This document shows positions 10,312-54,966 of a stretch of DNA of 64,000 nucleotides, one piece after another. Below the pieces are notes generated by a model. That model was not told the origin of the DNA, searched no databases, and saw nothing but the letters and a program-made list of their open reading frames with translations. The position numbers and the translations under genes were made by a program. Within the stretch, counting starts at the first letter, position 1, and the number at the start of each line of letters is the position of its first letter. The stretch spans positions 2,976,001-3,040,000 of the forward strand of contig NZ_CP032624.1 of the NCBI RefSeq assembly GCF_003627055.1. Reading direction: 5' to 3'. This stretch comes from Gryllotalpicola protaetiae (GTDB lineage: Bacteria > Actinomycetota > Actinomycetes > Actinomycetales > Microbacteriaceae).

Positions 10312-10362
10312 TAGACCGTCCGCCGTCGTCGGATGACGTGAACCGGCGACCGTGCCAGCGGG

Positions 10363-11592: not shown

Positions 11593-11605
11593 AATTCCTC
11601 CATTC

Positions 11606-11619
11606 GACAGGGGCCTGTC
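11606..11619. promoter_or_regulatory. MarR operator candidate
   Basis: gacagg-gg-cctgtc: 6-bp perfect arms just upstream of the ribosome binding site of the VOC-MarR-GNAT operon. Confidence 0.5.
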
Positions 11620-11683
11620 AAAATAGTAGCGGGCAAGGCCTGGATCGCCGAACCACCGATCATAAGAGCCCAGACCTTTGTGC

Positions 11684-12670: not shown

Positions 12671-12763
12671 GAAATGTCTCCATATCTGATGTTCAATGAG
12701 TGCCAAGGTTCCTCGGTGCGGACGAGCCTTGGGGGACACCGGTGGGGCTCATGACGGTCTGCC

Positions 12764-13687: not shown

Positions 13688-13726
13688 CTGCTCGACGATA
13701 AATAAACTACCCTCCAATAGGAAGAA

Positions 13727-13742
13727 GGCACCCACAAGTGCC
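13727..13742. promoter_or_regulatory. Short inverted repeat, HxlR operator candidate
   Basis: ggcac (13727-13731) and gtgcc (13738-13742) separated by 6 bp, between the divergent MDR and HxlR genes. Short arms, so weak evidence. Confidence 0.3.
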
Positions 13743-13765
13743 GTATGCACTGAAAGGAGAGTGTT

Positions 13766-32430: not shown

Positions 32431-32694
32431 GCCACCACCCTCGCGCAGGTCACAGAGCGGCACCATCGGCCCGAACGCCACCGGCCGCACGGATCACGCC
32501 AATGTCGGTAACGACTGCCACGCCACCACCCTGTTCGCTGACGGATCGATCAGCGTGAGGCCCCGTCTTTCGCGGGGCTGGCGGCAACTGCTGCCGAGGC
32601 GTCACTGATGAGTGGAGGTTGGGGCCGTTCGGTGATGAGATTATAGGACCAGCGTTGTCGGAGGCCGACCATGGTGCACAGTGCAGATCACTGG

Positions 32695-32718
32695 GTGCGC
32701 CGACTCGACGTCGCGCAC
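32695..32718 (+). promoter_or_regulatory. Hairpin in the leader of the cat gene; surrounding 351-bp gap
   Basis: The gap 32431-32781 holds no other gene. At 32695-32718 the RNA could fold as gtgcgc(c)gac-tcgac-gtcgcgcac (9-bp stem, one bulge). An in-frame ATG at 32671 opens a short leader that runs into cat. Gram-positive cat genes often use leader hairpins for translational attenuation; here this is speculative. Confidence 0.3.
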
Positions 32719-32781
32719 GGTGTCTCAGGAATGGCTGGGAGCACGCCGCGTCCCTCATATCTTTGGAAGGTAGGTGGTTCG

Positions 32782-33429
32782 ATGAACCAGAGGCGACTCG
32801 TCGACCTCGATGCCTGGCCTCGTCGCGATCAGTTCGAGCACTTCACGCGTTTTCCGTGCACATATAGCTTGACCATCCGCCTCGATGTGACATCGTTTAC
32901 GACGGCTGTGCGTCAGGCGGGTCGTAAAGCCTATCCCTCACAGGTATGGGCGATCTCAAGCCTGTTGAACAGACACGAAGAGTTTCGGATGTCTGTCGAT
33001 GACGGTATTCCTTCGGTCTGGGATGTCGTGCATCCGGCGTTCACAGTCTTCAACTCTGATCGCGAGACCTTCTCTAGCGTGTGGCTTCCCCACGACGATG
33101 ACTTCGACGCTTTTCACGCCGAGGCAGTCGAACTGTCGCGAATCCACCGTTCGGCTGATCGGATGTTCCCGCAGGGCGAGCTGCCGGACAACGCGTTCGA
33201 CATCTCGAGCCTGCCGTGGGTGTCGTTTACGGGCTTCGAGTTGAACATCGCAGGCGGGCACGGGCACTACCTGCCGATTTTCACTCTCGGAAAGTATGTC
33301 GATGAGGGTGACCGAGTGTTCATTCCTCTGGCGGTGCAGCTTCACCATGCGGTCGCGGACGGTTTCCACGTCGCGCGGTTGATCAACGAATTGCAGGAAC
33401 TGTTCGACAGCGCGGGGGAGTGGCTCTAG
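32782..33429 (+). CDS. catA: Type A chloramphenicol O-acetyltransferase
   Basis: A 215-residue protein, the normal length for CatA. The catalytic block is QLHHAVADGFHVARLI (His189 as base, Asp193 after HxxxD), with the usual Cys of HHAVCDG replaced by Ala. N-terminal DAWPRRDQFEHFTRFPCTYS and SLPWVSFTGFELNI are also CatA signatures. It transfers acetyl from acetyl-CoA to the 3-hydroxyl of chloramphenicol. ATG at 32782 with aaggtagg upstream. It lies among mobile-element remnants, upstream of an intact relaxase gene, which suggests acquisition by transfer. Confidence 0.92.
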   Translation: MNQRRLVDLDAWPRRDQFEHFTRFPCTYSLTIRLDVTSFTTAVRQAGRKAYPSQVWAISSLLNRHEEFRMSVDDGIPSVWDVVHPAFTVFNSDRETFSSVWLPHDDDFDAFHAEAVELSRIHRSADRMFPQGELPDNAFDISSLPWVSFTGFELNIAGGHGHYLPIFTLGKYVDEGDRVFIPLAVQLHHAVADGFHVARLINELQELFDSAGEWL

Positions 33430-33827: not shown

Positions 33828-36800
33828 ATGACGGTTTCGATGCGCGTGATGTCGGCGGGTGATGGCTACAAGTACCTGCTGCGCACGGTCGCCGCAGGCG
33901 ACGGTGACAGGTCGCTCTCGACGCCGTTGACGAGGTACTACAACGCCGAGGGCACGCCGCCCGGCAGGTGGCTCGGCTCCGGCGTCGCTGACCTCGGCGG
34001 CGGTCAGATCGGGGAGGGCGATCAGGTCTCCGAAGCCCAGCTCCAGCTCCTCATCGGCATGGGCCGCGACCCGATCACCGGGAAGCCGTTGGGCCGCGCG
34101 TACCCCGCGTACCGGCCTGTCGCTGAGCGGGTCGCTGAGCGCGTCGCGGACCTCGACCCTACTCTGGGGCCGGTCTCCCGTGCGGAGGCGGTCGCCGCAA
34201 TCGAGGCGGAGGAGGCCGAGCGCGGCACGCGGCGAGCGGTTGCGGGATACGACTTCACGTTCTCCATCCCTAAGTCGGCGTCCGTGTTGTGGGCCGTTGC
34301 GGACGCGGGCACGCAATCTCTGATCGGGCAGGCGCATCATGCGGCGGTTGCGGAGGTGGTTGCGTTCATGGAGCGGGAGGTTGCAGCCACCCGCACGGGC
34401 GCAACCGGGCGCAACGGCGCGGTTGCACAGGTGGACGTTCACGGGCTGATCGCAACCGGGTACGACCACTACGACTCTCGTGCGGGCGATCCGCACTTGC
34501 ATACGCATGTGGTTGTCTCGAACAAGGTGCAGACCGTCCTCGACGGCAAGTGGCGCTCCCTCGATGGGCGACCCATGCACGCGGCGACCGTCGCCATGTC
34601 GGAGCTGCACGAGGCGGTGTTCGCCGACCACCTGACCCGCATGTTCGGCGTCGTGTGGGAGGCCCGCGAGATGGGCCGCGACCGGAACCCGGCGTGGGTG
34701 ATCGTCGGCGTGCCAGAGGAACTGCTGGCTGCGTTCTCCACGAGGTCGCGGCACATCGACGTCGAGACTGATCGCCTGATCGAGCAGTACGTCACCGAGC
34801 ACGGGCGCAGGCCGGCTCCGGCGACGATCATGAAGCTCCGCGCCCAGGCAACCCTCACCACGCGGCCGGAGAAGGAAGTGCACTCGCTGGCCGACCTCAC
34901 CGCCGAGTGGCGACAGCGCGCCGGCCGTATCCTCGGATCGGACGCGACCTCGTGGGCGCAGGATGTGACCGCGAACGAGGAGCCGCTACTGCTCCGCGCG
35001 GACGACGTGCCGTTGGACGTGATTGCTTCCCTCGGGACAAGCGTGGTCGAGACGGTCGGTGAGAAGCGCTCGACCTGGCGGCGATGGAACCTGACCGCCG
35101 AGGCGGCCCGGCAGACCATGAGCTACAGGTTCGCTACCACCGACGATCGGGAGGCGGTCGTCGGTCTGGTCGTGGACGCCGCCGAGGCCGTGTCGCTGCG
35201 GCTGACGCCGCCCGAGCTCGCATCGAGCCCCGCGGTGTTCCAGCGACCGGACGGAACCAGCGTGTTCCGGCCGAAGCACTCGACCGTGTTCTCCTCCGAA
35301 GTGCTGCTGGCGGCCGAAGACCGCCTCCTCGAGCGCGCCCGGACCACCACCGGACCGACTGTGCCGCTGGCGACGGTCGAGCGGATCGCGGCACGGCCCG
35401 ACCGGAAGGGGCAGATGCTCGGCGACGACCAGGTCGCTGCCCTGGCGAAGGTCGCCGTCTCCGGCCGCGTCGTCGATGTCCTCGTGGGTCCCGCCGGGGC
35501 GGGCAAGACGACCGCGATGAACGCGCTCCGTCGCGCGTGGGAGTCAGAGCACGGTCCCGGCTCGGTGGTCGGACTCGCCCCCTCCGCTGTCGCGGCGCAG
35601 GTCCTCGCCGATGACCTCGGCATCCAGACCGAGAACACCGCGAAGTGGTGGGACACCCACGAGCGCACCGGCGAGACGTTCCGCACGGGGCAGCTCGTGA
35701 TCCTCGATGAAGCCTCGCTCGCCGGCACGCTGTCGCTCGACCGGATTACGAGCCTCGCCGCCGAGACTGGGGCGAAGGTCTTGCTCGTCGGTGACTACGC
35801 GCAGCTCCAGTCGGTAGACGCGGGCGGGGCGTTCTCGCTGCTCGTGCACGACCGGGACGACGCCCCCGAACTGGTCGACGTCCACAGGTTCGCGAACCCG
35901 TGGGAGAAGACCGCTTCGCTCGGTCTGCGTCACGGGCGCACCGAGGTCATCGACACCTACCTGAAGCACGGCCGAATCCACGGCGGGGAGACTGAGACGA
36001 TGATCGACACCGCCTACGCCGCATGGCGGACCGACCGGCTTGCCGGACGAGCGACCGTGCTGGTCACCGACTCGAACGAGTCCGTCCTCGCGCTCAACCA
36101 GCGGGCCCGCACAGACCTGATCCTCGACGGCACGGTGAACGCGTTGCACGAGGTCGAGCTGCACGACGGGACCCGCGCGGCGGCCGGGGATTCGGTCATC
36201 ACCCGGCACAACAACCGACGCCTGCGCGCCGGCCGCGGCTGGGTCCGAAACGGCGACAGATGGACAGTCACCGAGGTCCGCGACGATGGCTCGCTCACTC
36301 TCCGTCGCACCGCGAGACGCTGGGGCGGGTCGGTCGTGCTCCCGGCCGGGTACGTGGCCGAACACCTCGACCTCGGCTACGCGGTGACCTCTTTCCGCGC
36401 GCAGGGCATCACCACCGACACCGCCCACGTCCTGGTCGACGCTTCGATGACACGGGAGAACCTGTACGTCGCCCTCACCCGCGGCCGTGAGGCGAACAGG
36501 GCCTACGTCGCCGTCGACAAGCCCGACGGCTCCCACGACGGCCCGCACCCTGGAGACAACATCGAAGCCACCGCCCGGTCGGTGCTGTTCGGGGTGCTGC
36601 GGCACGTCGGCGCCGAGCTCTCCGCCCACGAGACGACCACCGCCGAGCAGGAAGCATGGGCGAACATCGGTCAGCTCTCCGCCGAGTACGAGACGATCGC
36701 CGCCGCCGCGCAACGCGACCGCTGGGCGACCCTCGTCCGCGCATCCGGACTCACCGACGAGGAGGCAGAAGCCGCGATCAACTCTCCGGCATTCGGCGCG

Positions 36801-37385
36801 CTGACCGCTGAACTGCGCCGAGCCGAGGCCAACCACCACGAGGTCGACACGCTGCTACCGCGCCTCGTGCGAGCACGACGATTCACCGATGCGGACGACA
36901 TCGCCGCCGTCCTCCACCACCGCGTCGCCAAAGCCACCGAGCGACCCGCCGGCTCCGCGCGCGCCCGCAAGATGCCGCGCCTGATCGCTGGTCTCATTCC
37001 CGAGGCCACCGGAACCATGAGCCCGGAGTTCCGGCAGGCGCTCGCCAAGCGACGCGACCTCATCGAAGCCCGCGCAGACGCGATCCTCGATGCCGTAGTC
37101 AGCGAGGGCCACGAGTGGATCGAGGCGCTCGGGAAGCAACCGAAGCAGGAACGAGCAGCGCAATTGTGGCGACATGCCGCACGCACCATCGCGGCGTATC
37201 GGGATCGCTACGGGATCGCCGACCCGCTCCCGCTTGGCGCACCCGCAGAGGCCGACGCTCAGAAGCTCGACGCCGCCCGCGCCCGCGCCGCGCTCGACCG
37301 GGCACAGAACCTCACCCAGGCTGAGCAGACAGAGCAGGAAAGCACGCGTCGCACAGGGACTCAGCGCGTTGGGCCGTCGCTGTAA
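33828..37385 (+). CDS. MobF-type conjugative relaxase with TraA-like helicase
   Basis: A 1185-residue protein. The N-terminal TrwC relaxase has candidate catalytic tyrosines Y37 and Y38 (LTRYYNAEG), the segment YDFTFSIPKSASVLWAV and the HUH-type metal triad H223, H225, H227 (PHLHTH). A RecD-like helicase follows: Walker A GPAGAGKTT (554-562), DEASLAGT, GDYAQLQSVDAGGAFSLL and, near residue 860, SFRAQGIT. It nicks DNA at an origin of transfer and unwinds it. ATG at 33828 has ggaggcaggg upstream. No other transfer genes are in the window, so the element is mobilisable at best. It stops 4 bp before the converging AlbA_2 gene. Confidence 0.93.
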   Translation: MTVSMRVMSAGDGYKYLLRTVAAGDGDRSLSTPLTRYYNAEGTPPGRWLGSGVADLGGGQIGEGDQVSEAQLQLLIGMGRDPITGKPLGRAYPAYRPVAERVAERVADLDPTLGPVSRAEAVAAIEAEEAERGTRRAVAGYDFTFSIPKSASVLWAVADAGTQSLIGQAHHAAVAEVVAFMEREVAATRTGATGRNGAVAQVDVHGLIATGYDHYDSRAGDPHLHTHVVVSNKVQTVLDGKWRSLDGRPMHAATVAMSELHEAVFADHLTRMFGVVWEAREMGRDRNPAWVIVGVPEELLAAFSTRSRHIDVETDRLIEQYVTEHGRRPAPATIMKLRAQATLTTRPEKEVHSLADLTAEWRQRAGRILGSDATSWAQDVTANEEPLLLRADDVPLDVIASLGTSVVETVGEKRSTWRRWNLTAEAARQTMSYRFATTDDREAVVGLVVDAAEAVSLRLTPPELASSPAVFQRPDGTSVFRPKHSTVFSSEVLLAAEDRLLERARTTTGPTVPLATVERIAARPDRKGQMLGDDQVAALAKVAVSGRVVDVLVGPAGAGKTTAMNALRRAWESEHGPGSVVGLAPSAVAAQVLADDLGIQTENTAKWWDTHERTGETFRTGQLVILDEASLAGTLSLDRITSLAAETGAKVLLVGDYAQLQSVDAGGAFSLLVHDRDDAPELVDVHRFANPWEKTASLGLRHGRTEVIDTYLKHGRIHGGETETMIDTAYAAWRTDRLAGRATVLVTDSNESVLALNQRARTDLILDGTVNALHEVELHDGTRAAAGDSVITRHNNRRLRAGRGWVRNGDRWTVTEVRDDGSLTLRRTARRWGGSVVLPAGYVAEHLDLGYAVTSFRAQGITTDTAHVLVDASMTRENLYVALTRGREANRAYVAVDKPDGSHDGPHPGDNIEATARSVLFGVLRHVGAELSAHETTTAEQEAWANIGQLSAEYETIAAAAQRDRWATLVRASGLTDEEAEAAINSPAFGALTAELRRAEANHHEVDTLLPRLVRARRFTDADDIAAVLHHRVAKATERPAGSARARKMPRLIAGLIPEATGTMSPEFRQALAKRRDLIEARADAILDAVVSEGHEWIEALGKQPKQERAAQLWRHAARTIAAYRDRYGIADPLPLGAPAEADAQKLDAARARAALDRAQNLTQAEQTEQESTRRTGTQRVGPSL

Positions 37386-40378: not shown

Positions 40379-41803
40379 TCATCTGATTCCATACTTCACT
40401 GACTGAGTTCGCCGAAGCATCGCATCTACCTCAGGTTCGTCAAGACCTAATTCGCGGAGCATCACAGCTTTCATCAGCGTGCTGAGAAGTACGAGCGCCT
40501 CAGATAGTTCCCGCCCTTGGAATCGATCGCCGAGGTCACCAACGTGCGTTAGTGAGTCACGTGTATCAACGACGCGCCGAAGGAAGCGCTCTCGCCGCTC
40601 ATACCGCGCTCGAACGAACGGGCTGGAGCGGCCGACCATCAGTTCGAGGCGGGCTTTCAGGCTGTGCTCGTTTGCGTGCTTGAGGCGAGACACAACAAGC
40701 TCACCTTGTGGTTCACCTTCGAGAGCTTCCTTGACCTTCCGTTTGATGGGAGCGAAGTCCACTTCGGGAATCGCGAGCGACGGGTCGAGAACACCATGCC
40801 AAACCTCCAGCGCGCGCACTACGCGCAGGAAGGACTCCTCGAATGAGCTCAGTGCGGGCCACATCACGTATGCGAAGAAGTTGTAGAAGGCCGATCGTCC
40901 TTGCTCATCCATTTCAAACCAACGGGCCACAAGTGTTGGAAAGCGCACCGCCATCTCGTCAAAGGGGATGAGGAACTCAAAGTCGGCAGGAAATTCACGA
41001 TCAGTTGGATGAGCCATCCAAGACGAAGTGAGCCACTCGAAACTGCCAGGGAAGATCGGGTAGTCGTACCCGTCCTTGGGCGCGCCCACACCTTCCGCGT
41101 CATCGTCTTCGGCATCGGCGGGCTGAACTGTCAGACTCTCGAACTGGTCGCCCGTATCGCAGGCCAATGTCATGAGGTGCAGCACAGGCGTAACAAATGC
41201 CTCCCACGCCGCAGATAGAGCCAATGGTTCGTCAGGCACGTACTCAAACTCTGGTACGTAGCGACGGCTGAAGCCGATAGAACTGGACCGCTGTTGGATG
41301 TTCCATCGAAAGGTGAGGGTTCCAGCCAAGAGCCGCGACCTGAGTGGCTCAGGAACCGCGGACCGGACCGCGACTGCTCCGGCCTCGGAGGTTTCCTGCA
41401 CTTCAGGTGAGTGTTGGTCCGCCCAGGCCCTAGTCGCGCGCGTTCTCAGAGTCAGAGACTTCACCATCGTCGCGGTTCCATCTGGAAGCCAGGCCCCAAC
41501 AGCGATCTCTCGCGCAGCCCAGACCTCACTGTGCTTTCCCGCACGCGTAGTCGTCAGTATCCGCTGCGGCTCAAGCATCGTGACTCGTGTGCCGTGAGCG
41601 TCCGTTCCGAGGATCTGGAAATCGTCAGTCCATAAATGTTGGCCGAGGAACTCGCCGTCCACTTCCAAGCGAGCGCCTTGTGCGGGAGTGAAGGTCAGGG
41701 TTCCGGGAAGTGCGATGTCGGGGTGCGTCGAGAAACTCCACTCGCCTCGGAAGAGCCGCTCCAATGTCGGCGCTCCCGCGCTCCCCAGCTCGATTGTGCT
41801 CAT
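40379..41803 (-). CDS. apeA: ApeA-like HEPN-domain abortive-infection protein
   Basis: A 474-residue protein. The N-terminal half looks like the ApeA N-terminal domain (LERLFRGEWSFSTHPDIALPG, WTDDFQILG, VEFEYVPDEPLA); the C-terminal third is helical and contains R415-DSLT-H420, the Rx4H motif of HEPN RNases, followed by a helical tail. ApeA is a known anti-phage HEPN RNase. It is read leftwards, divergent from the PD-(D/E)xK-NACHT gene with 237 bp between starts. The ATG at 41803 is preferred over a TTG/ATG ten codons upstream. By eye its DNA is less G+C-rich than the flanks. Confidence 0.85.
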   Translation of the reverse strand: MSTIELGSAGAPTLERLFRGEWSFSTHPDIALPGTLTFTPAQGARLEVDGEFLGQHLWTDDFQILGTDAHGTRVTMLEPQRILTTTRAGKHSEVWAAREIAVGAWLPDGTATMVKSLTLRTRATRAWADQHSPEVQETSEAGAVAVRSAVPEPLRSRLLAGTLTFRWNIQQRSSSIGFSRRYVPEFEYVPDEPLALSAAWEAFVTPVLHLMTLACDTGDQFESLTVQPADAEDDDAEGVGAPKDGYDYPIFPGSFEWLTSSWMAHPTDREFPADFEFLIPFDEMAVRFPTLVARWFEMDEQGRSAFYNFFAYVMWPALSSFEESFLRVVRALEVWHGVLDPSLAIPEVDFAPIKRKVKEALEGEPQGELVVSRLKHANEHSLKARLELMVGRSSPFVRARYERRERFLRRVVDTRDSLTHVGDLGDRFQGRELSEALVLLSTLMKAVMLRELGLDEPEVDAMLRRTQSVKYGIR

Positions 41804-42040
41804 GTCACCATCCTCCTGCAACGTAGGCTGCAAGGTTCCTTTAGCCGGGCAAGACCTCCCTGAGGCCCATAGTGGATCGCACTGCGCCTGGACCCAGATC
41901 TCCTCAGACGGGACGCCACTTACGACTGGCTCTGAGATTGTCGCCCTTATCGCAGACTATTGAGCAGCGGGTGTGGCTTCCGCGTCGGTGTCCGTCCCTG
42001 ATGGGATCATTGGGCAGGACGATTCACGGGAGGCGGCTCG

Positions 42041-44812
42041 ATGGCGCAGGACTACCCGTTGGAGGAACTCAGCCCGCGGGCGTTTGAGCAGCTCACAGTC
42101 GCGTTGGCGCTCAAGGCACTCGGGCACGGAGTCGAGGCCTTCGGGTCGGGCCCGGATGGTGGACGGGAAGCGACCTACACCGGACCGGTGAACTGGTCCG
42201 CGACAACGGGCTTCGGGACGGACTCTTGGGACGGGTACATCGTCCTTCAAGCGAAGCAAAAGGAAACCCTCGGAACTCCTGCGCAGAACGCCTCATGGCT
42301 ACTGAAGCAGGTTTCCGATGAATTCGATTCTTGGATGGCCAACGACAGTAAGCGAGGACAGTTTCCTCAGTACATCATCTTCGTGACGAATGCGCGGCTA
42401 AGCAGCGTCGCAAACTCTGGCGGAATCGACCAGATCAACGCCAACATCCGTCAGCGGATCACCTCGCCCGTGCCTGGAACTGACGGCCGGGACTCGTTGG
42501 CCGCCCGAGGTCTTCGGTCTGCGAAGGTCTGGCATCGCGACCAGCTCAACGGCTTACTGACGGTGAACGACGGAATTCGTAACGCCTTCAAGGGAATGCT
42601 GACGGTCGGGGACCTACTCACCCGGCTCGGTGCGCTCGGCGGGCTGCTCGATCCTTCTCAGTTCGAGCCTGTTTTAAAAGCGCACGCAATGAGAACTCTG
42701 GGCGTCGAGCGCTGGGTGAACTTCAGTGACGCTGGGGGGACAACCCGACAATCGATCGACGAGGTCATCATCGATCTCAAGGCCGACGGGACGCGCGCCG
42801 AAAATACGACGCTGCTTCAGGAAGTGATCGACCGCGGCGACTCCGTACTAAAGCCGTCATTCCACTCGGCGCAGCCGCACCTCGTCATCACAGGTCAACC
42901 TGGTAGCGGCAAGAGCACGACCACGTCGTTCTTGACCCAGATGTACCGGTCCGGGTTCGCTGCCGACGAATCACTCACAGCAACAACAACCGCGATCCTC
43001 GACGGAACCGCAGCCGCCCTGGAGCGCATCGGCGTATCGGCCCCAAAGAACCATCGGTGGCCGATTCGGGTAAACCTCGCGCACTACGCCGACGAGATTG
43101 GTCCAAGCGGCGATAAGAGCCTGTTGAGATGGCTGAGCGAACGCGTGACTGCCCGTGCCGAACTGGACATCAAGCCGCACACACTGAAGAGGTGGTTCCA
43201 GCACTGGCCGTGCCTCGTCGTCCTCGACGGACTCGATGAAGTCACCGCGCCGGAAGTGCGCCCCCGCGTGCTGGACGAGATCAGAACCTTCGTCGAGGAA
43301 GCGCACCAGGACGATGCAGACCTCCTCGTGATCGTCACGACCCGACCAATGGGTTACACGGAACAGATCATGCCTGAGCTGTTTACCCAGCTCAACTTGA
43401 AGTACCTGGATGCTCCGACAGCTATCAGCTATGGACGCCATATCACCTCTCGCCGACTCTCTGACGACCTAGACCGCCGAGATCAAGTCATCGCACGCTT
43501 CGAGCGACACGCATCCGACGCCACGATGTTGCGACTCATGAAGACGCCGCTACAAGTTCTGATCATGACCTTGATCCTTGAACAGTTCGGAGTACTTCCG
43601 GCTGACCGATACCAGCTTTTCTGGCGATACTTCGAGACCATCTACCAACGGGAATCAGCGAAACCCACAAACCTCGCACCATTCCTGGCCGAACATCGAC
43701 CCGCGATCACGGACCTTCACGAAGCTGTCGGCCTGTCGCTACAAATCCACGCCGAGACCTCGACCGATGCACGTGCGATCCTCACGAAGGATGAACTGCG
43801 CCAACTTGCCGTCCAGCGGCTCGTCCAGGTCGGTCACCAGCTTGGCCCGCAGGTGGACCGGATCGCGGACCGGATTGTCCAAGCAACCACCGAGCGCCTG
43901 GTGCTGCTAGTCCCTGCAGAGAACGACGGAGTCTCTTTTGAGATACGCAGCCTTCAGGAACTGATGGCCGCACGCGCGTTGAGCAATGTCACCGACGAGC
44001 AACTTAACGCTCATCTGTCAGCAACCGCGCCGAGCCCTCACTGGCGCAATACCTGGGTGTTCGTGGCTGGACGTGTGTTCGCAGAAGGTCCCGATCATCG
44101 CCGAGACCTCGTCACCGACGTCGTGGAAAACGTGGACAAGAACGCGAATTGGCCCGGCTGGTTGTGCGCAATCGGCCCGGAGCTGGCGGCATATCTGCTC
44201 GACGACGGCCTAGCTGCCCGGACTCCCAGATGGCAGCGAAGATTGATCGACGTGGCGCTGCGAGCACTCTCGGGTCCCGTTCCGCAAGACGTTCGTGCCG
44301 TCGCAATTGGCCTCTCCAACGCCAGCGTGGGAAATGACCTGATGTACATCCGGAACGCGCTGAAAGCAGCGTTCGCGGGAACTCCCGTCGCGCGCACGAT
44401 CGCCCATTCCGTGCTGGCGGCCGGCCAGTTCGGCGCGCCCATACCGGAGGCACAGACCTCCCTCGGTCAAGTGACCCGAGTTGACGCTCTATTGGCCGAC
44501 CTCATCGAGCCCCAGCTAGCCGAGCTCGGACTATCGGAAGGCGCTCGCCAATCGCTGGACAGCATCCTCATCGAGCTTCGCGAGACTGCTCTGACAGCCG
44601 CTTGGGACGCGAGCCTTCAGCGACTACTCGCAACGCTGCCATCGTCGCTGCCCCATACGATCGCCGGACTACGGGATGCCGAGGTCGGGACCGCCCTCGA
44701 GATTTTGCTCGGGGCACTCGGGCCCGAGAACTGGAGCGCCACGGCGGCATTGGGGCAAGCGGTGTGGCCCTCGCTGGCTCGGGTACCGGTCGGGCGACAG
44801 CTTGAGTCTTAG
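42041..44812 (+). CDS. PD-(D/E)xK nuclease-NACHT NTPase (STAND defence protein)
   Basis: A 923-residue protein. Residues 1-180 look like an Mrr/restriction-type nuclease: SPRAFEQLTVALALKALGHG, D39 in GPDGGREA and VLQAKQK (Q70-x-K72). A NACHT-type NTPase follows: Walker A TGQPGSGKST (284-293), Walker B LVVLDGLDEV (392-401) and VTTRPMGYTE. The remaining 480 residues are helical sensor-like repeats. Such proteins act as phage sensors that switch on DNA cleavage. ATG at 42041 with gggagg upstream. It stands beside apeA in a defence cluster. Confidence 0.88.
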   Translation: MAQDYPLEELSPRAFEQLTVALALKALGHGVEAFGSGPDGGREATYTGPVNWSATTGFGTDSWDGYIVLQAKQKETLGTPAQNASWLLKQVSDEFDSWMANDSKRGQFPQYIIFVTNARLSSVANSGGIDQINANIRQRITSPVPGTDGRDSLAARGLRSAKVWHRDQLNGLLTVNDGIRNAFKGMLTVGDLLTRLGALGGLLDPSQFEPVLKAHAMRTLGVERWVNFSDAGGTTRQSIDEVIIDLKADGTRAENTTLLQEVIDRGDSVLKPSFHSAQPHLVITGQPGSGKSTTTSFLTQMYRSGFAADESLTATTTAILDGTAAALERIGVSAPKNHRWPIRVNLAHYADEIGPSGDKSLLRWLSERVTARAELDIKPHTLKRWFQHWPCLVVLDGLDEVTAPEVRPRVLDEIRTFVEEAHQDDADLLVIVTTRPMGYTEQIMPELFTQLNLKYLDAPTAISYGRHITSRRLSDDLDRRDQVIARFERHASDATMLRLMKTPLQVLIMTLILEQFGVLPADRYQLFWRYFETIYQRESAKPTNLAPFLAEHRPAITDLHEAVGLSLQIHAETSTDARAILTKDELRQLAVQRLVQVGHQLGPQVDRIADRIVQATTERLVLLVPAENDGVSFEIRSLQELMAARALSNVTDEQLNAHLSATAPSPHWRNTWVFVAGRVFAEGPDHRRDLVTDVVENVDKNANWPGWLCAIGPELAAYLLDDGLAARTPRWQRRLIDVALRALSGPVPQDVRAVAIGLSNASVGNDLMYIRNALKAAFAGTPVARTIAHSVLAAGQFGAPIPEAQTSLGQVTRVDALLADLIEPQLAELGLSEGARQSLDSILIELRETALTAAWDASLQRLLATLPSSLPHTIAGLRDAEVGTALEILLGALGPENWSATAALGQAVWPSLARVPVGRQLES

Positions 44813-45442: not shown

Positions 45443-45616
45443 GCGCAAGACCGGCATGCCGTTATTGGATGGTGCTGCCAGAGTGGAGCCTGTAGAGACC
45501 ACCGCGGAGCTCACGCTCTCAATGGATCAACGTGCAATCGTGGCAAGATTGGCTTGGACACACTGACGTCCAGACCGTCCGCGGGTTGCGGAGACGTATC
45601 GTGCTTGGGGGACGGG

Positions 45617-47374
45617 ATGGCTGAACCTTTACGAACGGTTCCGGCTGTTCTGGAGAGGTTCGGGTCGACCTTCTCAGCGTTCACTGCTGCCTTCAATGAA
45701 GGTCAGTACGTGCTGTGGCTTGGTTCGGGTATCTCTCGCGACAGGGTGCCGAATGTCAATGCACTCCTCAAGCGTGTCATAGAGCACCTCCGGTCGAACA
45801 TCGTTGCTGGTGACACGAACTGTGAGTACCGGGTCGCGCTTGACGAGGTGCTGCGGCTCGCCGGTCTGACGGGCGAGGAACTGAAGAGCATCGATTTCTC
45901 GATCGCAGTCGAGGGCTGGCCGCTGCGGGACCGCATCATCCCAGCTCTGGTGACGAACTACTCGCGCGTTCTTGATGTTCTCGTAGGTGACACCAACCCT
46001 GACGACTATCTCGTCTGGACAGGTCTCGATGTCCCGAACACCTATGGGGCACCGGACCTTGAGCCCGATGTGGAGCACTACTGCATCGCGATCCTCATGC
46101 TGGAGGGGCTGGTCGCATCGGCGGTCACCGCGAACTGGGATGGGCTCCTTGAGAAGGCACTCGGCGAACTGACTCCGGCGTTTGGCTCGCTGGTTCGCGT
46201 TGCCGTGAAGCCGGATGATTTTCGTGTTGTCGGGCCGCGTATTGAGGTGATCAAGTTCCATGGCTGTGCGGTGCGTGCCCGAGATGAAGAGTCCGAGTAC
46301 CGGGATTTGCTCATCGCACGTGAATCACAGATTTCGAGGTGGACTGAGCAGCCAGAGAACCGGTCGATGCGCAAGCACCTTGAGGTGCTCTATACCGACC
46401 GGTTGACGTTGATGCTTGGTCTGTCGGCGCAGGATGCAAACCTCCACACGGTGTTCGCGGGAGCCATCCAGGATTTGGCTCGGCCGTGGCCGGCGTCATC
46501 GCCTGCGGTTGTCCTCAGTGAAGAGCACCTGGAGTCGTATCACCGGAACCTTCTCAAGATTACGTATGGCTCGAATCACCAGGGGAACGCTAGCGCTATC
46601 GCACAGTCCGCCCTTCTGGGTGCGTACGGCAAGCCAACGTTGTTGGCCCTGGTCCTGTCGTCGCTCACCGAGAAACTGAGCTTCTTGATCGAGCATGAAA
46701 TTGAGAGTGTCTGGGGACCGGCAGCCGTGAGCCAGTTGCAGACAGACCTACTTGGCCTCCGCGACCTGGCAGCGAAAAATGCTGACCCCGACGACGCAGA
46801 AGCGCTCGAACGCTCGGCGATTTTGGAGTTTCAGAGGGGGTTCGCTGCCCGTCTTATCGACGTAGCAAACTTGGCGCTGACTGTCTTTCGTACGGGCCGC
46901 ATGCCGACCGCCGGTGGCGGTCGCTATGAACCGCTGTCGGATCGTCCTGTCGCCCAGGCGGTTCTCAACGCAGATTTCCCTTCGAAACAGTTCGGGCGGC
47001 TCGGTGTCGCGCTGGCATTGATTGGTCGCGGACTCGCCTCGGGGCAGTGGTCAGCTATGCCGGGCGATGCCAGGGCAGTCGGCGATGGTGTGGTTCATCT
47101 GGTCACTGGCCAGCGAACCGCCCGTGTGTTCTTTGTAAAGGACGCCACGACGTCGACGCAGCTTGAGTTGGAGGCCTCGTTCGACGACAGTGATGGGGAT
47201 GTGCTGATCGTCATAGCGGATGAAGAGCCCCCGGCCCAGACCCGATCACCGAGATCTCGCTTCGGTCGTGATGGCAAGCCCAGAGCCGGGCGGTTCAGCG
47301 TCGCATCCAGCATCGCCGACACTGCCTCAGCTGATGACTTGTATGAGGCGTTCAAACTCGCGAGCGGGTTCTGA
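45617..47374 (+). CDS. LmuA-like effector with SIR2 domain
   Basis: A 585-residue protein. The N-terminal SIR2 domain (about 25-310) has the NAD-binding GSGIS (36-40), N173-W-D175 in VTANWDGLL, and H215-G216 in IKFHGCA (catalytic His position). The C-terminal half would be the system-specific adaptor domain. In Lamassu/ABC-3C systems an effector of this type is armed by an SMC-like ATPase; SIR2 would be expected to deplete NAD+. ATG at 45617 has a ggggga Shine-Dalgarno; the frame opens at 45554. It overlaps the next gene by one base (TGATG). Confidence 0.87.
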   Translation: MAEPLRTVPAVLERFGSTFSAFTAAFNEGQYVLWLGSGISRDRVPNVNALLKRVIEHLRSNIVAGDTNCEYRVALDEVLRLAGLTGEELKSIDFSIAVEGWPLRDRIIPALVTNYSRVLDVLVGDTNPDDYLVWTGLDVPNTYGAPDLEPDVEHYCIAILMLEGLVASAVTANWDGLLEKALGELTPAFGSLVRVAVKPDDFRVVGPRIEVIKFHGCAVRARDEESEYRDLLIARESQISRWTEQPENRSMRKHLEVLYTDRLTLMLGLSAQDANLHTVFAGAIQDLARPWPASSPAVVLSEEHLESYHRNLLKITYGSNHQGNASAIAQSALLGAYGKPTLLALVLSSLTEKLSFLIEHEIESVWGPAAVSQLQTDLLGLRDLAAKNADPDDAEALERSAILEFQRGFAARLIDVANLALTVFRTGRMPTAGGGRYEPLSDRPVAQAVLNADFPSKQFGRLGVALALIGRGLASGQWSAMPGDARAVGDGVVHLVTGQRTARVFFVKDATTSTQLELEASFDDSDGDVLIVIADEEPPAQTRSPRSRFGRDGKPRAGRFSVASSIADTASADDLYEAFKLASGF

Positions 47375-47946
47375 TGACAAGCGTTCAAGATGTCCTCGCC
47401 GTACTGGAGAGAGCTGGTTTCGAACGACTTCCCAAGCCTCTGACTGTTGTCGGCACAGAGTTCGACTTCGAGGCCGCGGCCCGCGGAATGAATACTTCGC
47501 ATGACTTGGTTCTGATTGCGACTGACCAAGTTCCTCGTCGGCGTCTGCAACGCCTCGTCGCGGGTTTAGCCCGTTCCCTTGACCTGGCGGCGTCACGGCG
47601 ACCTGTGAGTCTCGTACTTCTCGGCGGAGTCGCCGCCTCCGATCGAATCGAGTTGGAGCGATACGCCCGCATCCTTCCCATCGCGTCCTCCACACCCGAT
47701 ATCGCGGAAATTGAGGAAGCCGTTGCCGTCCTCCTGCCGCTGAAGCTGCCGAACGCGGACCTCGTTCACGGAGGCGACCCAGTCAACGAAGTGATGGCCG
47801 TCCTCGGTCCCCTGAGGGCGACATCGGACCACATCGCGCTCATCAAGACTGCCGCGGACGGACCGGACACAGTAAAGGAAGCCCTGCGCCGCTACGCGAA
47901 TGAAGGAGCAGGCTGGACCGACGAGGTGGGGGATGGCGATGAGTGA
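47374..47946 (+). CDS. LmuC-like middle component
   Basis: A 190-residue protein of no enzymatic motif, with VLVLIATDQVPRRRLQRLVAGLARSLDLA pattern (in pieces LVLIATDQVPRRRLQRLV, AGLARSLDLA). Its place and size, between a SIR2 effector and an SMC-like ATPase, match the middle component (LmuC/ABC-3C MC/DdmB). I assign it by context. The start overlaps the upstream stop, and its 3' end overlaps lmuB by 8 bases, indicating a tight complex stoichiometry. Confidence 0.75.
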   Translation: MTSVQDVLAVLERAGFERLPKPLTVVGTEFDFEAAARGMNTSHDLVLIATDQVPRRRLQRLVAGLARSLDLAASRRPVSLVLLGGVAASDRIELERYARILPIASSTPDIAEIEEAVAVLLPLKLPNADLVHGGDPVNEVMAVLGPLRATSDHIALIKTAADGPDTVKEALRRYANEGAGWTDEVGDGDE

Positions 47947-50353
47947 CGTCCCCATTCGTCGCCTTATGGTCTCCGACTTCCGGCGCATAGAAGGCACTCG
48001 TGAACTGCCTTTCGACGCACCCGTCGTACTCATTCACGGCCCAAACGGCACGGGAAAGACAAGCGTTCTGTCGGCGCTAGAACTCGCCTTGACTGGCGGT
48101 ATTCGGAGCATGGAACGTCAGTCCGATCGCTACCGAGCGCACCTCCCGTTCCTCGGGCAGTCCTACGCAACGGTTCGAGCCGACGTTGCCGAGTACCTGC
48201 AAGCGGGAACGCCCGGCACCCCGCTGACCGTGAACGGCGCGCGTTTGGAAGGCACCCCCGCCTTCAACGCCGCCGCCGCGAAGTTCTACGCTGAACGGTG
48301 CTACCTGGACCAGACATCGCTGGGTCGTCTCCTCGACCTATACCAAGCCCGCGAAGGCAACGAACAGACAGCGCTCGAGAAGTTCGTCAACGAGCTCCTT
48401 GGCCTTGAGAAACTGGACGCTCTTCGCACCGGGCTCAGCGATGCAAATGACTTCAGGCTCTTCAAGAAACTCGCGGCCGGCGTCGACGAAGCCGATCGCG
48501 AAGCGAAGACAGCAGCCATGCAGCTCAAAGAACAGACTGCTCTGCGAGCCGAAATCCGGACGCAGGTCACCAACGCGCGGGCCGCGACCCGCGAGGCCGT
48601 CGCTGGACTCGATCGCGAAATGACTGACGCCGGTTCCGATGTGGACCTTCTTGCGGTCGTCCGGTCGACACTCGACGGCGACACCACCCGGGTCGAGTCT
48701 GCCGCTGCTGTAACGCTCCATCAGGAGCTCATCGCTTTGGGCGGTCGTATCTCAGCACTGGTCGAACGTCCGACCACGCAACGAATCGAGGAGACCCGCC
48801 TTGCGCTGGCGGCTGCGACCGCCGACAAAGAGGCGTGGGAGGCCGAGGGCGGGGCGAAAGTCCGGGCGTGGGAAGCGGCAGCCCAGGCTGCTGGTGTCGA
48901 CCTGCGCAGCGAACCGCGTATCGCCGTCGAGTACGCTACGAACTCGGCCCTCCAGGAGCTGAGCGATGCCTCCGACGTTCGCGCGCAGGTCGAATCGGTT
49001 GGCACGCAACTGGAGTCCGACCAAGCTGCGTTGGATGTGCTTCAGACTCGACTCGCTGATGCTCATGAGCATTCAAGCGCCCTCGTCGAGGGCTTAGCCG
49101 CAGTCCGCAGCGTCGTCGACGATAGCAACAGGTGCCCGGTCTGCGACCGGGACTTCAATGAAACAGGTCATCACAGCCTCCTAGCTCACATCGATACAAA
49201 ACTGGCTGAGCTCACCAGTCACGGACAGCAACTTGTCGACCTGCGGAACGAGCGCGACGAACTTGCGGCACGGGTCACTCGTGTGGAAACTGAGCACACC
49301 CAACTCATAGCCCGGCTCCTTTCCGCCGACCAGCAGCAGGCCGTCGAGGAGCGTCACGCAACCCTCGTTGAACTCGCCGCCCAAATCGGAGGAATCGAAG
49401 CTACCAAGTCCGCCGGGACGGACCTCTTCCGGCTCGTGCGTGACCTTCAGCAATCACTCGACGACCTTGAGGCCGCTACTTCAGAAGAGCGGCACATCGG
49501 CGGCGAGCTCGCCAGATACGCGAGCCTTCTGGAGGTCACCGTGGTTCCGACGTTCGATTCGTTCCAGACAGTATCGGCAGAACTGCTCAAAAGCGCCGAA
49601 GCTCAAGTTGCCCGCCTCACAGACAAGGCCAACCAGTACCGGAAAACAGATGTCGAAGCGGCTCGCCTTGCGGCCGCGCTCGACGACGAATCCGCAGCTG
49701 TCCAACGCCTCGCCGATATCGCCGAACACAAGAAGCAATGGGACGACCGTGTCGCTGAAGCGAAGCGCCGCCAAGGGGTAGCGAAGGAAGTCCACGAAGC
49801 CGCAACACAGGCACGCACCAACATCGTCCACCGTGTCTTCACGGAATCCCTCAACGAAGTCTGGAAGACCGTATTCACTAGGCTCGCCCCGAACGAAGGG
49901 TTCATCCCAAGCTTCGGAATTCCCAGCGCAACAAAGAAGACGTTCGACATCAAGTTGGAGACCACCCACCGCAACGGCGAAGCCAGCGGCCCGCCCCAAA
50001 TGATGCTGTCTGCGGGCAATCTGAACACAGCAGCACTGTCCCTGTTCCTCGCGCTCCACCTCGCCGTCGAACCGATCGTCCCGTGCCTTGTCTTCGATGA
50101 CCCCGTCCAAGCAATGGACGAAGTACATGTGGCGCAGTTCGCTGCACTCATCCGCCTCCTTTCGAAGCAGAACGACCGGCAAGTCATAATCGCCGTCCAC
50201 GAACGCGAACTGTTTGATTACTTAGCTCTCGAGCTCAGCCCTGCCTACGAAGGCGACGAGCTCATCACCATTGAACTCGGCGAACGCGCAACCGAGGAAG
50301 ATCAAGGCATCACCCGCCACCTCTGGGCGCCAGACGCTGCGATAGCCAACTAG
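47939..50353 (+). CDS. LmuB-like SMC/Rad50-type ATPase
   Basis: An 804-residue protein: Walker A GPNGTGKT (34-41), a long coiled-coil region, a zinc hook CPVC (C399-C402), then signature LSAGNLNTAALSLFLAL, Walker B/D-loop CLVFDDPVQAMDEVH (about residue 715-730) and AVHEREL. This is the Rad50/SbcC-like architecture of Lamassu LmuB. It would recognise an invader DNA end or structure and release LmuA. ATG at 47939 is chosen (another in-frame ATG at 47933). Coupled to lmuC. Confidence 0.9.
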   Translation: MSDVPIRRLMVSDFRRIEGTRELPFDAPVVLIHGPNGTGKTSVLSALELALTGGIRSMERQSDRYRAHLPFLGQSYATVRADVAEYLQAGTPGTPLTVNGARLEGTPAFNAAAAKFYAERCYLDQTSLGRLLDLYQAREGNEQTALEKFVNELLGLEKLDALRTGLSDANDFRLFKKLAAGVDEADREAKTAAMQLKEQTALRAEIRTQVTNARAATREAVAGLDREMTDAGSDVDLLAVVRSTLDGDTTRVESAAAVTLHQELIALGGRISALVERPTTQRIEETRLALAAATADKEAWEAEGGAKVRAWEAAAQAAGVDLRSEPRIAVEYATNSALQELSDASDVRAQVESVGTQLESDQAALDVLQTRLADAHEHSSALVEGLAAVRSVVDDSNRCPVCDRDFNETGHHSLLAHIDTKLAELTSHGQQLVDLRNERDELAARVTRVETEHTQLIARLLSADQQQAVEERHATLVELAAQIGGIEATKSAGTDLFRLVRDLQQSLDDLEAATSEERHIGGELARYASLLEVTVVPTFDSFQTVSAELLKSAEAQVARLTDKANQYRKTDVEAARLAAALDDESAAVQRLADIAEHKKQWDDRVAEAKRRQGVAKEVHEAATQARTNIVHRVFTESLNEVWKTVFTRLAPNEGFIPSFGIPSATKKTFDIKLETTHRNGEASGPPQMMLSAGNLNTAALSLFLALHLAVEPIVPCLVFDDPVQAMDEVHVAQFAALIRLLSKQNDRQVIIAVHERELFDYLALELSPAYEGDELITIELGERATEEDQGITRHLWAPDAAIAN

Positions 50354-50584: not shown

Positions 50585-53500
50585 ATGACCCGTCGAAACT
50601 CCGAGCGCGCGATAGCCGAAGCGCGCCGACGAGGTGCCGCGCAGGAGCGCCGCGGCAAGAAACGGGAGACCTCACCGCCTGCCAGCCCAGCGACAACTAG
50701 CGTGCCAACCGACCCGCAGGCTGCGTTGTGGGTTGCTTCCCGAGCCGGTGCGCGTGCCGGGCGCGGCTTTCGTTTTCAGGATCTGGTCGCCACGCTTGTT
50801 GTATTGCGCCTGTGGAGCGAAGGCGACGCGACAGCGGTCGTGACACCGGAAGGGTTTGACGACATTTCGGTGCAGTCGTCGAGCGGGTCGTTCTTCATTC
50901 AGGTCAAGTCGCGACGCGAGAGCGCGGGCGATTTCGCCCCGACAGACCTGCGAAAAGACTTACGTTCCGTCGCGAAGGCCTGGGTGAAGCGCAGGGAAGC
51001 CGAACTCTCAGCCGAGACGATCCTCTTGCTTGAGCGCCCGGTCGCTCGAATCCCAGTTCCCGGGTGGGGGAGTGAGGCTGCACGACCTGGCTCGAGTGCC
51101 TCGAGTGAATTGGCCAAGGAACTGGATGCTCTATCCTTCGACAACGATCAGGATTCGGTTGCCTTTGCGGCCTCAGCCTCAGTTGTAATCTGTCCTGATC
51201 CGCACGCGCAGGCGATCAGCATCGTTGCCGGGGCTCGTGATTTCCCGGATGGACTTGCGGAAATCATTGTGGCTGCCGTGTGCACCCAAGTGGGACAGGC
51301 TAGCGACGCGAACGCGGACCCGGATGTCGCGCGGCGCGCGGCCGTGGACATTGCAGGCATCGATGTCCTCATAGACCAGGTCCTTGCGACCGTTGACCTC
51401 GAGTTGCTCGATGAAGCAAGGTCGCTGGGGGTTTGCGAGGCAATCGACTGGAGATCGCCTGCTGATGACTCGGACATACGTCAGGGCGTGCATGTGGGGG
51501 CTCCTCATGTCGCTGCCGGATTGCTCGTGCCCCGTGTTGAACTAACCCAGCAGGTGATCGAAGTCGCGGTGGCCCGCCGGTTGGCGGTCGTTGCCGGGCC
51601 GAGCGGCAGTGGCAAGAGCGCACTCGCCTACGCCGCCGCGCACGAGACCCGGAGTCTGTATCGCTGGCAGCATGTCCACTCGCTGACACCAACGGGGCGC
51701 ACCGGGCGCGATGCCGTCGCACTTCTTTCCGCACGCATTGAGTCTTTGCGGCCGAGTGCGTATGCCCCTGTGGGAGTCCTCATCGACGACGCTGGGCGCC
51801 ACGACCCAGATCTGCTCGATCGACTACTGAGACGGCTCGCGGATCTGTCGAACGTGATCACCGTTGTTTCAATTCGGGAGGAAGACCGCTTCCCTGTCCC
51901 GCTACTGTCGGCCATTGCCACGATAACGCCCATGCTTGACGACACCTTTGCAGAGCAACTCTGGCGCGACTACCGGGCTGACAATCTCACCGAATGGGCC
52001 GGATGGCGGGAACCAGCCGAGCGAGCAGGCGGCCTCCTACTGGAGTACGTCACTCTGCTCACCGAAGGCGTGAATCTCGACAGTGTCGTCAGCGCGCAAG
52101 TCGCCGCACGCGAAGCAGACCCGAGTCGACATCTTGAGCTTGAGATCCTCCGGCTCGCATCGTGTGCCAACCAATACGGCGTCGCCGTCCCTGCATACGC
52201 GATCCAATCCGCTCTGGATGCCGATCGCGACGCATTCATCGCCGCCAGTCGCCGCCTCATCGACGAGCACCTCATCGTTGAGGACTCGGGCAACCTCATA
52301 CGGCCGCTGCACGAAATCCGCTCCGCCGCACTCGCCCGGACAGCTCACCCCTTCGGACAGCAGGAGACCCTCAAGCGCATTGTCCCTCTGGTGACCAGCG
52401 CCGAACTCGCACGATTCCTCCGACGCACACTCGAGTCCGGGGCCGACCAGGCCGTAATGATCCAGGCCGCAACCGAGCGCATCACACGCGATCGCACCCT
52501 CCAGACGCTCATCGCAGTCGCATCCGCTTTCCGCGCCGATGGACTGCGACGGCGGGCCGACGACTGGAAGCTCATCCTCGATGAATGTGACGTTGATGCT
52601 GGCAACGCTGTAACTGCGTTCACGATGTCCCGCACAAAGCCACGCCCCGACACAGAACAGCTCTTCAAACCCGAGATTGTGGCAGCCGTTGAGCGGCTCC
52701 GCAGCGTCCCGACCGATCCGGATCTGCAACCCCTATGGCAAATGATCGACACGACGCTGGTCGAAGAACTCACGACCGCCGCGGTCCCCGATGATGATGC
52801 AACTCAACTCCTTTTGCAGGCCATCACCGTACTTCGCGGTTTTGACGTCACAGCCCTGGAGTCCACGGCAGGTGCAATCGGCGCACGCCTGACTGTATGG
52901 CCGCTGCACGACGCGGCCGATATGACGGAGGCGTTGCGCCGCGCGGCACCCGAACTTGCGGAACGCGCTGTCATCACAGCCGGCGGCGAGCAGCTCCTCC
53001 TGCGCAGGATCGCGACAGAAACACCGTGGCTAGCGTCGCTGGAACGCGTAGAAGACGGGGTGGATGGCAGGTGGATCTTTGTCGACGAGGAGCTACAGCC
53101 GAACCAGAACGAGGCCGTCGTTGAGGTGTGCCGACTGGCCCTCGCTCTTGCGCCGACAGCGTTGATCGCCCGGGTAAGTGCCGTTGATGCCCTTGGGCGT
53201 TTGGTCAAGCTCGGCGACTACCCGCTCGTTGACAAAGCGATTCCGCGGGAGAATTTGCCCCATACCCTCGAAGTCTCCGACAACAGAGCCCAGGCTCGAG
53301 CGTTGTCTCGAAAGTACGGCGCGGGCACGCTGACGTCCAAGCTTGCGGCTGAGGCTAAAGCACTCGGGGCACTCATCGACCTGCTTCCCGAAATCACCAT
53401 CGCCCACTTAGGCGATCGGACTGTGCCTCAAGCGATTGTTCGTCAGTTCGAATCGGTGAACGCGCTACTTTCCGAGATGGACTCCCCGGCAGACGAGGGC

Positions 53501-54703
53501 TACACGGACGAAGTGCCGGGCGCCCTCGGTGACTATCCCGTCGAGAGCGACGCCATCACTGTCGTGCGATCGATGCTCCAGCACGTCATTCCAAACCTTG
53601 CACGGGCAGATGTCGCCGAGCGGCGCCCCATCCTGACTGTCGGAACGCTCGACAGTCTCATCCCAAAGGTCGGCGCATTGATCGAACTCGACCGATACCG
53701 CTACCTCCCCGACCCGCCCGATTGCGCTCAGCTACTCGACTGTCTCCGCCAATTGCGAATGGTCGCGTCCGCCAGCGCAGGATCGGACTTATCAATGCGC
53801 GTATCCATGCGGGCCGCTGCTGGGCGACACACGGGAACCGCTCGGATCGCAGCAGCAGGCACCGTTGCGACCGAGCGCTCTTTCGCAGCCTTGCAGAAAG
53901 AGGCCGAACGAATGCGACTTGCGCTCGCAAACGCGGGGTACGCGGTCGCTGTAGTGCCGAGCTCCTCCGACCACACGATGATGAGTTGGCCTCCAGGAGA
54001 CCTAGTGATCATTGTGGAAGGAGAGAGCGTCCTCACCCATCTAAATGCTCTCGCATCTCTCGCGGATGCTGCGAGAGCTGCTGTTGAACAGCCCGACCGG
54101 CGTGTATGGATTGGACTGCGCTCAGCCGATGGCTACTTGTCTGCCTCGATCTTCCAGGTTGCGCATCACGGGGTGCTCCCACTTGGCGATCGTGGAGCGC
54201 CTTCCGCATTCGCAGGCTCGATCGCTGCGACACCAATTTCTGATCCCTACGGGGCTTATCTTCAGCAAGCTCGTCGTCTCTCGTCGATCGCGGCGATCAT
54301 TGCGATCCGCGGGAGCACTCTGATTCCCGACGAGGAAGGACGGGTGCTTGACGAATCGTGGGACCGTCTTGTCGGCCTCAAAACGCAACTCGATGAACTC
54401 ACCTCCGCTCACGCTGGAACCGAGTATGTGTCCGCGCTCAGCAACATTTTGACGGTCATCGGCTCGGCGATCACTGATGACCTGTCCACCGCAAAGGGCT
54501 CAGCGGAAGAAGGCCGATCTGGATGGGATGAGATCGCGAGCTTGCAAAGCCTGCTGCTGCTTGACACAGACCAAGCGGCAACACCAGGGACCGATGCTGC
54601 GGTCGTCTACGGCACGGCCGTTGTCATCGCGGACATCGAGGACGATTTTGAGGATGCTGATGATCGCATTGCACAAATGCAAGGGCACGGTTCGAATACC
54701 TAA
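50585..54703 (+). CDS. Large nuclease-P-loop NTPase protein, uncharacterised defence candidate
   Basis: A 1372-residue protein. An N-terminal Cap4/DUF4297-like PD-(D/E)xK domain has ARAGRGFRFQDLVATLVVLR, E89, D92/D93 (PEGFDDISVQ) and QVK (106-108). A P-loop ATPase follows: AGPSGSGKSAL (G338-S345) and IDDAGRHDPDLLDRLLRRLA. About 850 residues downstream show no family I recognise. ATG at 50585 lacks an obvious Shine-Dalgarno. It is separated from lmuB by 231 bp, so it is probably a stand-alone unit. The combination suggests a sensor-activated nuclease; target and partner are unknown. It is the last gene before the tRNA attachment site. Confidence 0.82.
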   Translation: MTRRNSERAIAEARRRGAAQERRGKKRETSPPASPATTSVPTDPQAALWVASRAGARAGRGFRFQDLVATLVVLRLWSEGDATAVVTPEGFDDISVQSSSGSFFIQVKSRRESAGDFAPTDLRKDLRSVAKAWVKRREAELSAETILLLERPVARIPVPGWGSEAARPGSSASSELAKELDALSFDNDQDSVAFAASASVVICPDPHAQAISIVAGARDFPDGLAEIIVAAVCTQVGQASDANADPDVARRAAVDIAGIDVLIDQVLATVDLELLDEARSLGVCEAIDWRSPADDSDIRQGVHVGAPHVAAGLLVPRVELTQQVIEVAVARRLAVVAGPSGSGKSALAYAAAHETRSLYRWQHVHSLTPTGRTGRDAVALLSARIESLRPSAYAPVGVLIDDAGRHDPDLLDRLLRRLADLSNVITVVSIREEDRFPVPLLSAIATITPMLDDTFAEQLWRDYRADNLTEWAGWREPAERAGGLLLEYVTLLTEGVNLDSVVSAQVAAREADPSRHLELEILRLASCANQYGVAVPAYAIQSALDADRDAFIAASRRLIDEHLIVEDSGNLIRPLHEIRSAALARTAHPFGQQETLKRIVPLVTSAELARFLRRTLESGADQAVMIQAATERITRDRTLQTLIAVASAFRADGLRRRADDWKLILDECDVDAGNAVTAFTMSRTKPRPDTEQLFKPEIVAAVERLRSVPTDPDLQPLWQMIDTTLVEELTTAAVPDDDATQLLLQAITVLRGFDVTALESTAGAIGARLTVWPLHDAADMTEALRRAAPELAERAVITAGGEQLLLRRIATETPWLASLERVEDGVDGRWIFVDEELQPNQNEAVVEVCRLALALAPTALIARVSAVDALGRLVKLGDYPLVDKAIPRENLPHTLEVSDNRAQARALSRKYGAGTLTSKLAAEAKALGALIDLLPEITIAHLGDRTVPQAIVRQFESVNALLSEMDSPADEGYTDEVPGALGDYPVESDAITVVRSMLQHVIPNLARADVAERRPILTVGTLDSLIPKVGALIELDRYRYLPDPPDCAQLLDCLRQLRMVASASAGSDLSMRVSMRAAAGRHTGTARIAAAGTVATERSFAALQKEAERMRLALANAGYAVAVVPSSSDHTMMSWPPGDLVIIVEGESVLTHLNALASLADAARAAVEQPDRRVWIGLRSADGYLSASIFQVAHHGVLPLGDRGAPSAFAGSIAATPISDPYGAYLQQARRLSSIAAIIAIRGSTLIPDEEGRVLDESWDRLVGLKTQLDELTSAHAGTEYVSALSNILTVIGSAITDDLSTAKGSAEEGRSGWDEIASLQSLLLLDTDQAATPGTDAAVVYGTAVVIADIEDDFEDADDRIAQMQGHGSNT

Positions 54704-54885: not shown

Positions 54886-54930
54886 CTGGGGGTCAGGGGG
54901 TCGCAAGTTCAAATCTTGTCAGCCCGACCA
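54886..54930 (+). repeat. 3' half of tRNA-Pro(GGG) gene: integrative-element attachment site
   Basis: From the anticodon loop ctggggg (54886-54892; anticodon GGG) the sequence reads as a tRNA 3' half: 3' anticodon strand, T-arm gcaag-ttcaaat-cttgt, acceptor strand cagcccg, discriminator A and encoded CCA at 54928-54930. The 5' half is missing: upstream bases cannot pair. This is the product left when an element integrates at a tRNA 3' end. The matching intact copy was not found in the window. Confidence 0.8.
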
Positions 54931-54933
54931 AAA

Positions 54934-54966
54934 AGCCCCGGTGAAACTACATTTTTCACCGGGGCT
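54934..54966 (+). terminator. Terminator of the tRNA-Pro locus
   Basis: Perfect 13-bp arms agccccggtgaaa (54934-54946) and tttcaccggggct (54954-54966), 7-nt loop, immediately after the tRNA CCA and followed by gttta. It fits a rho-independent terminator. Confidence 0.8.

Follow-up and report, generated by a model that had tools for sequence, protein, structure and literature searches.

The gene at positions 50585–54703 of the window (the whole 64-kb stretch of DNA that was analysed) encodes what is probably a single-polypeptide antiviral STAND protein of the Avs/NLR-like kind, carried as cargo of an 81-kb element, that would sense infection and activate a nuclease. A defence function is likely. 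The predicted protein joins an N-terminal Cap4-type nuclease domain, a central STAND NTPase module and a long C-terminal region, and its parts lie as follows:

50585..54703, + strand: whole gene, 1372-residue nuclease–STAND protein (open frame; length and start shared with orthologues; dN/dS ~0.2)
50717..51109, + strand: predicted Cap4-type PD-(D/E)xK nuclease domain, about residues 45–175, with E89, D93, Q106 and K108 (PF14130, family profile and invariant residues; right edge approximate)
51110..51484, + strand: linker, about residues 176–300, variable, joining the nuclease to the STAND module (boundaries approximate)
51485..52384, + strand: predicted nSTAND NTPase and winged-helix-like segment, about residues 301–600 (PF20703, PF25199 and invariant residues)
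52385..54700, + strand: C-terminal region, candidate sensor, residues 601–1372 (about 770 residues), free of library matches and with a better conserved patch at about 801–920
54886..54938, + strand: right attachment-site-like repeat, the 3′ part of tRNA-Pro, with its match at the intact tRNA-Pro, 81 kb upstream

A maintained gene in a rare family

Translation of the open reading frame gave 1372 codons with no internal stop. The open frame reaches further 5′, to 50516; the start at 50585, given in an earlier note on this DNA, holds because it corresponds to the first residue of the orthologues from Microbacterium hominis (L003) and Arthrobacter alkaliphilus (L005). The M. hominis orthologue is 90% identical, has 1372 residues and yields a dN/dS of 0.21, and that of A. 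alkaliphilus is 77% identical, with 1370 residues and a dN/dS of 0.18. These identities, lengths and ratios therefore indicate that the protein is real and is maintained by purifying selection. A third orthologue, from Arthrobacter terrae (L004; 88% identity), has its open reading frame split over two frames (10001–13862), and this copy and one from Sphingopyxis (L008) appear broken. The Sphingopyxis copy (7950–12274) is shortened and adjoins an IS21 element.

The family alignment comprises 14 members from five phyla, with 13 homologues at 15–90% identity. Plasmids of Marinovum, Ruegeria, Agrobacterium and Caulobacter carry near- or full-length homologues; Arthrobacter has a shorter one, and relatives at a greater distance occur in Hymenobacter, Pseudanabaena and Deinococcus. 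Three further homologues come from actinobacterial genomes. Within Actinomycetota the family is rare: at E 1e-12, a sample of 395 other genomes from the order contained 2 with a member, and a sample of 395 from the phylum contained 1. In a first whole-class profile search, the matches from other genomes were short and nearly all limited to the P-loop, and we disregarded them. No relative was found on viral contigs in a scan, or in phage records.

A Cap4-type nuclease joined to a STAND NTPase

The Cap4_nuclease model of Pfam (PF14130) matched residues 53–122 with 31.8 bits, above its curated cut-off of 26.2 (E 2.1e-7). Matches to PADLOC models were confined essentially to the nuclease, namely LmuA (2.8e-8, residues 54–133 only) and HamA (3.4e-5). 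Searched against solved structures, a family profile built from 11 members found LmuA 9ux7 (3.4e-6) and 8zue, ‘Anti-bacteriophage protein A’ (9e-5), in alignments that take in the E..D and QVK motifs. The alignment showed E89, D93, Q106 and K108 to be invariant in all 14 family members, so that the nuclease residues, whose loss in orthologues had been set as a test of the earlier reading, are kept throughout. That reading, of a Cap4/DUF4297-like PD-(D/E)xK nuclease with D92 or D93 in the motif, stands for the domain and for D93, whereas D92 varies across the family. The family-model match and the conserved E, D and QxK residues mark the protein as a Cap4-type PD-(D/E)xK nuclease, and DNA cleavage is predicted.

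The P-loop, GPSGSGKS, occupies residues 338–345, where the earlier note had placed it; the STAND identity of the NTPase had been overlooked. The gene's own protein matches the Pfam models nSTAND1 and nSTAND5 (PF20703 and PF25199) weakly, under their curated cut-offs, and PF25199 is matched by 11 of the 14 family members, with a best E of 8.4e-16. Invariant across all 14 are the STAND residues S340–K344, D401, R431, H576, R579 and S580. D401 is the Walker B aspartate and R431 sits at the position of the sensor arginine. The LHxIRS motif (H576/R579/S580) lies about 145 residues past R431, where STAND proteins carry a winged helix, and we infer from this motif and its position that the segment is a winged helix. 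Together, these features identify the NTPase as a predicted nSTAND-type switch with a core closest to nSTAND5. In a profile alignment with Avs2-like proteins, the STAND core aligned over only about 100–130 columns, no better than the P-loop of an SMC protein. A match of the family profile to the designed ‘phosphate-loop protein’ 6c2u was rejected, as it reflects the P-loop only.

Nuclease motif, P-loop and STAND motifs are kept by every member of the family, and the presence of the nuclease motif in 14 of 14 indicates that nuclease and STAND module travel together. Effector swapping on the STAND core was ruled out in the distant homologues L034, L035, L036 and L052, all of which have the Cap4-type nuclease motif.

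A C-terminal candidate sensor

Past about residue 600, searches of Pfam, NCBIfam and PADLOC gave no credible match, which bears out the earlier description of this long C-terminal region as unassigned. By analogy, the region is probably the infection sensor. We found no repeats in it, either as a Pfam repeat family or as self-similarity in a profile self-comparison, and its profile matched none of the Avs2-like, NACHT, SMEK, SIR2 and SMC proteins with which it was compared. A patch at about residues 801–920 shares 30–38% identity with the alphaproteobacterial homologues L006, L007, L010 and L011, compared with 14–23% for most of the rest. This uneven conservation could reflect a sensor under diversifying pressure or, equally, a loosely constrained scaffold.

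AlphaFold2 models of residues 46–660 and 560–1372, made with three input sequences, had a mean pLDDT of 37 and 36, respectively. These low-confidence models contain mostly helices, with an α/β stretch near residues 1110–1210, and give only a hint of the fold. We tentatively consider that the family may be a separate type of antiviral STAND protein, in which the C-terminus would fold into a sensor other than a TPR/LRR-like superhelix, perhaps with an α/β domain at about 1110–1260, and would recognise a trigger new among Avs proteins.

The gene is the last cargo of a mobile element

The sequence at about 54886–54938 consists of a 3′ fragment of tRNA-Pro and the bases that follow it. The exact pattern of the tRNA fragment occurs once in the genome, also when up to three mismatches are allowed, and the second copy was found by a longer DNA search. 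An intact tRNA-Pro(GGG), whose 3′ half the repeat matches, lies 81 kb upstream (G000:C1:2949514-2949588). A tRNA attachment site beside the gene had been proposed; the element edge with its tRNA-Pro repeat is there, as a 3′ fragment only, with no complete tRNA found within the 64-kb window. Directly inside the left end is a tyrosine integrase gene on the minus strand (L047:1287-2552, or 2949786-2951051; PF00589, 1.4e-25), and also inside that end is a gene for a type IV secretion system (T4SS) coupling protein (L047:3803-5599; PF02534, 9.5e-25). A TrwC relaxase gene is located at 33828–37385 of the window. From the tRNA-Pro 3′ repeat, the intact tRNA-Pro beside the integrase, and the coupling-protein and relaxase genes between them, we read the carrier as an integrative conjugative-type element, some 81 kb long, in which this gene is the terminal cargo beside the right attachment site. 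The element also contains a chloramphenicol acetyltransferase-type gene (window 32671–33429; PF00302, 3e-71).

G+C content is about 60–63% over 40–56 kb of the window, compared with about 67–70% to either side. This stretch includes an ApeA-type HEPN protein on the minus strand (40379–41833; best PADLOC match PDC-S58, 2.5e-29), a further candidate for defence in the element, and a 923-residue protein (42041–44812) with an Mrr-like N-terminus, under the Pfam cut-off, and a NACHT/STAND-like P-loop. The latter is a second candidate nuclease–STAND protein of the same element. As had been noted, a Lamassu-like operon lies upstream of the gene (45554–50353) and encodes a SIR2_2 protein, a small protein with a weak match to an Avs2 model (2.5e-4) and an SMC-type protein whose best match is LmuB (E 1.4e-38).

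Neighbours differ among the actinobacterial orthologues L003, L004 and L005, and none is common with this operon; the gene therefore appears to act alone there. This agrees with its earlier description as a stand-alone gene, as no partner is conserved among the actinobacterial copies. In Marinovum (L006 8019-16200), the homologue overlaps a 1458-residue gene whose product has an HNH-effector-like N-terminus and the NACHT C-terminal domain NCAB2, and Ruegeria (L011) carries the start of that overlapping gene.

Proposed function

The domain order, the catalytic and STAND residues, the purifying selection and the cargo position, as read from the sequence, are the starting point for a proposed mechanism. 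In the resting state, the Cap4-type nuclease would be inactive. The C-terminal region would recognise a molecule specific to infection, probably one of the phage's proteins, and recognition would release the STAND module for nucleotide binding or exchange and then oligomerisation. The oligomer would bring the N-terminal nuclease domains together, leading to DNA cleavage that would stop the infection, probably because the infected cell dies or is arrested. In Avs proteins, recognition of a phage protein, oligomerisation and activation of an N-terminal nuclease have been described (PMC12198126; PMC12931631). Domain logic together with this published Avs work is our basis for proposing that the C-terminus acts as a sensor, that the protein oligomerises, that its substrate is DNA and that the outcome is defence.

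Besides the nuclease and STAND matches with their invariant residues and the precedent of the Avs proteins, further observations argue for an infection-sensing STAND protein: nuclease and STAND module are always joined, across five phyla; the neighbours are of defence type (ApeA-like HEPN, Mrr-like/STAND and Lamassu-like); and the gene is mobile cargo. Against it stand the STAND scores of the protein itself, which fall under the cut-offs, the lack of a repeat-type sensor and of an Avs model match in our searches, the shortness of the STAND alignment and the low confidence of the structure models.

Alternatively, the protein could be an NTP-dependent, DNA-sensing nuclease of restriction type, in which the C-terminus would bind or discriminate DNA, the NTPase would gate or drive cleavage, and no phage protein would be recognised. 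The nuclease resembles LmuA, HamA and Cap4, some of which, as is generally known, belong to systems that respond to DNA, and the AlphaFold2 models of the C-terminus, being poor (pLDDT 36–37), leave room for such a role. We nevertheless regard it as unlikely, as the STAND-type NTPase is a signalling switch in characterised relatives and not a helicase motor, and elsewhere in the protein, searches of Pfam and NCBIfam detected neither a helicase nor a DNA-binding domain.

Less probable still is that the protein acts mainly on competing mobile elements such as plasmids and conjugative elements, rather than phages, and so shields its carrier. A conjugative-type element carries the present copy as its terminal cargo, and most of the named homologues are plasmid-borne, a count biased by the search of a plasmid collection; however, the neighbours belong mostly to antiphage families, and published work describes comparable STAND proteins as antiphage (PMC12931631, PMC9122126). 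A role as accessory subunit in the Lamassu-like operon is very improbable because L003, L004 and L005 share no neighbour with that operon, which already has a SIR2-type effector, even though the gene is on the same strand, 231 bases separate its start at 50585 from the SMC gene, which ends at 50353, and the nuclease resembles LmuA.

If an infection-activated STAND nuclease is confirmed, the NLR-like immune receptors of bacteria would gain a family that occurs in five phyla, often as part of mobile elements, and that combines a Cap4 nuclease, an nSTAND5-type core and a candidate sensor of about 770 residues. Which phage component the C-terminal region recognises then becomes a testable question.

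Comparison with known systems

In keeping with the earlier note, no named system matched the protein over its full length in searches of PADLOC, NCBIfam and Pfam. PADLOC's Avs models matched neither the gene's protein at E 1 nor any of the 14 members at E 0.01. We did not find a description of this family in the open-licence literature, and papers beyond it may exist. The earlier view of a layout without a named counterpart finds no support: the predicted STAND switch, with nSTAND5 matched in 11 of 14 members, gives an effector–STAND–C-terminal-domain architecture, which is Avs/NLR-like. Such proteins, nuclease-bearing ones included, are an established kind, and we take the effector of Avs3 to be itself Cap4-like. 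What appears to set the present family apart is the absent Avs model match, the nSTAND5-type core and a C-terminus without a library match.

The nuclease-bearing Avs/AVAST types are likewise single polypeptides with an N-terminal effector nuclease, a central STAND NTPase and a long C-terminus, and are found in defence islands and as cargo of mobile elements (PMC12931631, PMC9122126); they differ in that this family has no PADLOC Avs match, a core nearest to nSTAND5 and no detected TPR-like C-terminal repeats. The TIR, SIR2, Mrr and BpuSI_N–STAND–repeat proteins of P4 satellites share the effector–STAND–C-terminal order and are also mobile-element cargo, whereas they carry C-terminal repeats, of which none was detected here, and PMC9122126 mentions no Cap4/DUF4297 effector among them. 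Lamassu LmuA, Hachiman HamA and CBASS Cap4 have the same type of nuclease, with similarity limited to about the first 80 nuclease residues, and are separate subunits with SMC, helicase or cyclic-nucleotide partners. For Lamassu in particular, the likeness to LmuA covers only residues 54–133, and the orthologues of this gene share no SMC neighbour. In HerA–DUF4297, a Cap4-like nuclease is also turned on by NTPase-driven assembly (PMC12198126), although that system consists of two proteins with a HerA motor, whereas here a single protein would combine the nuclease with a STAND switch.
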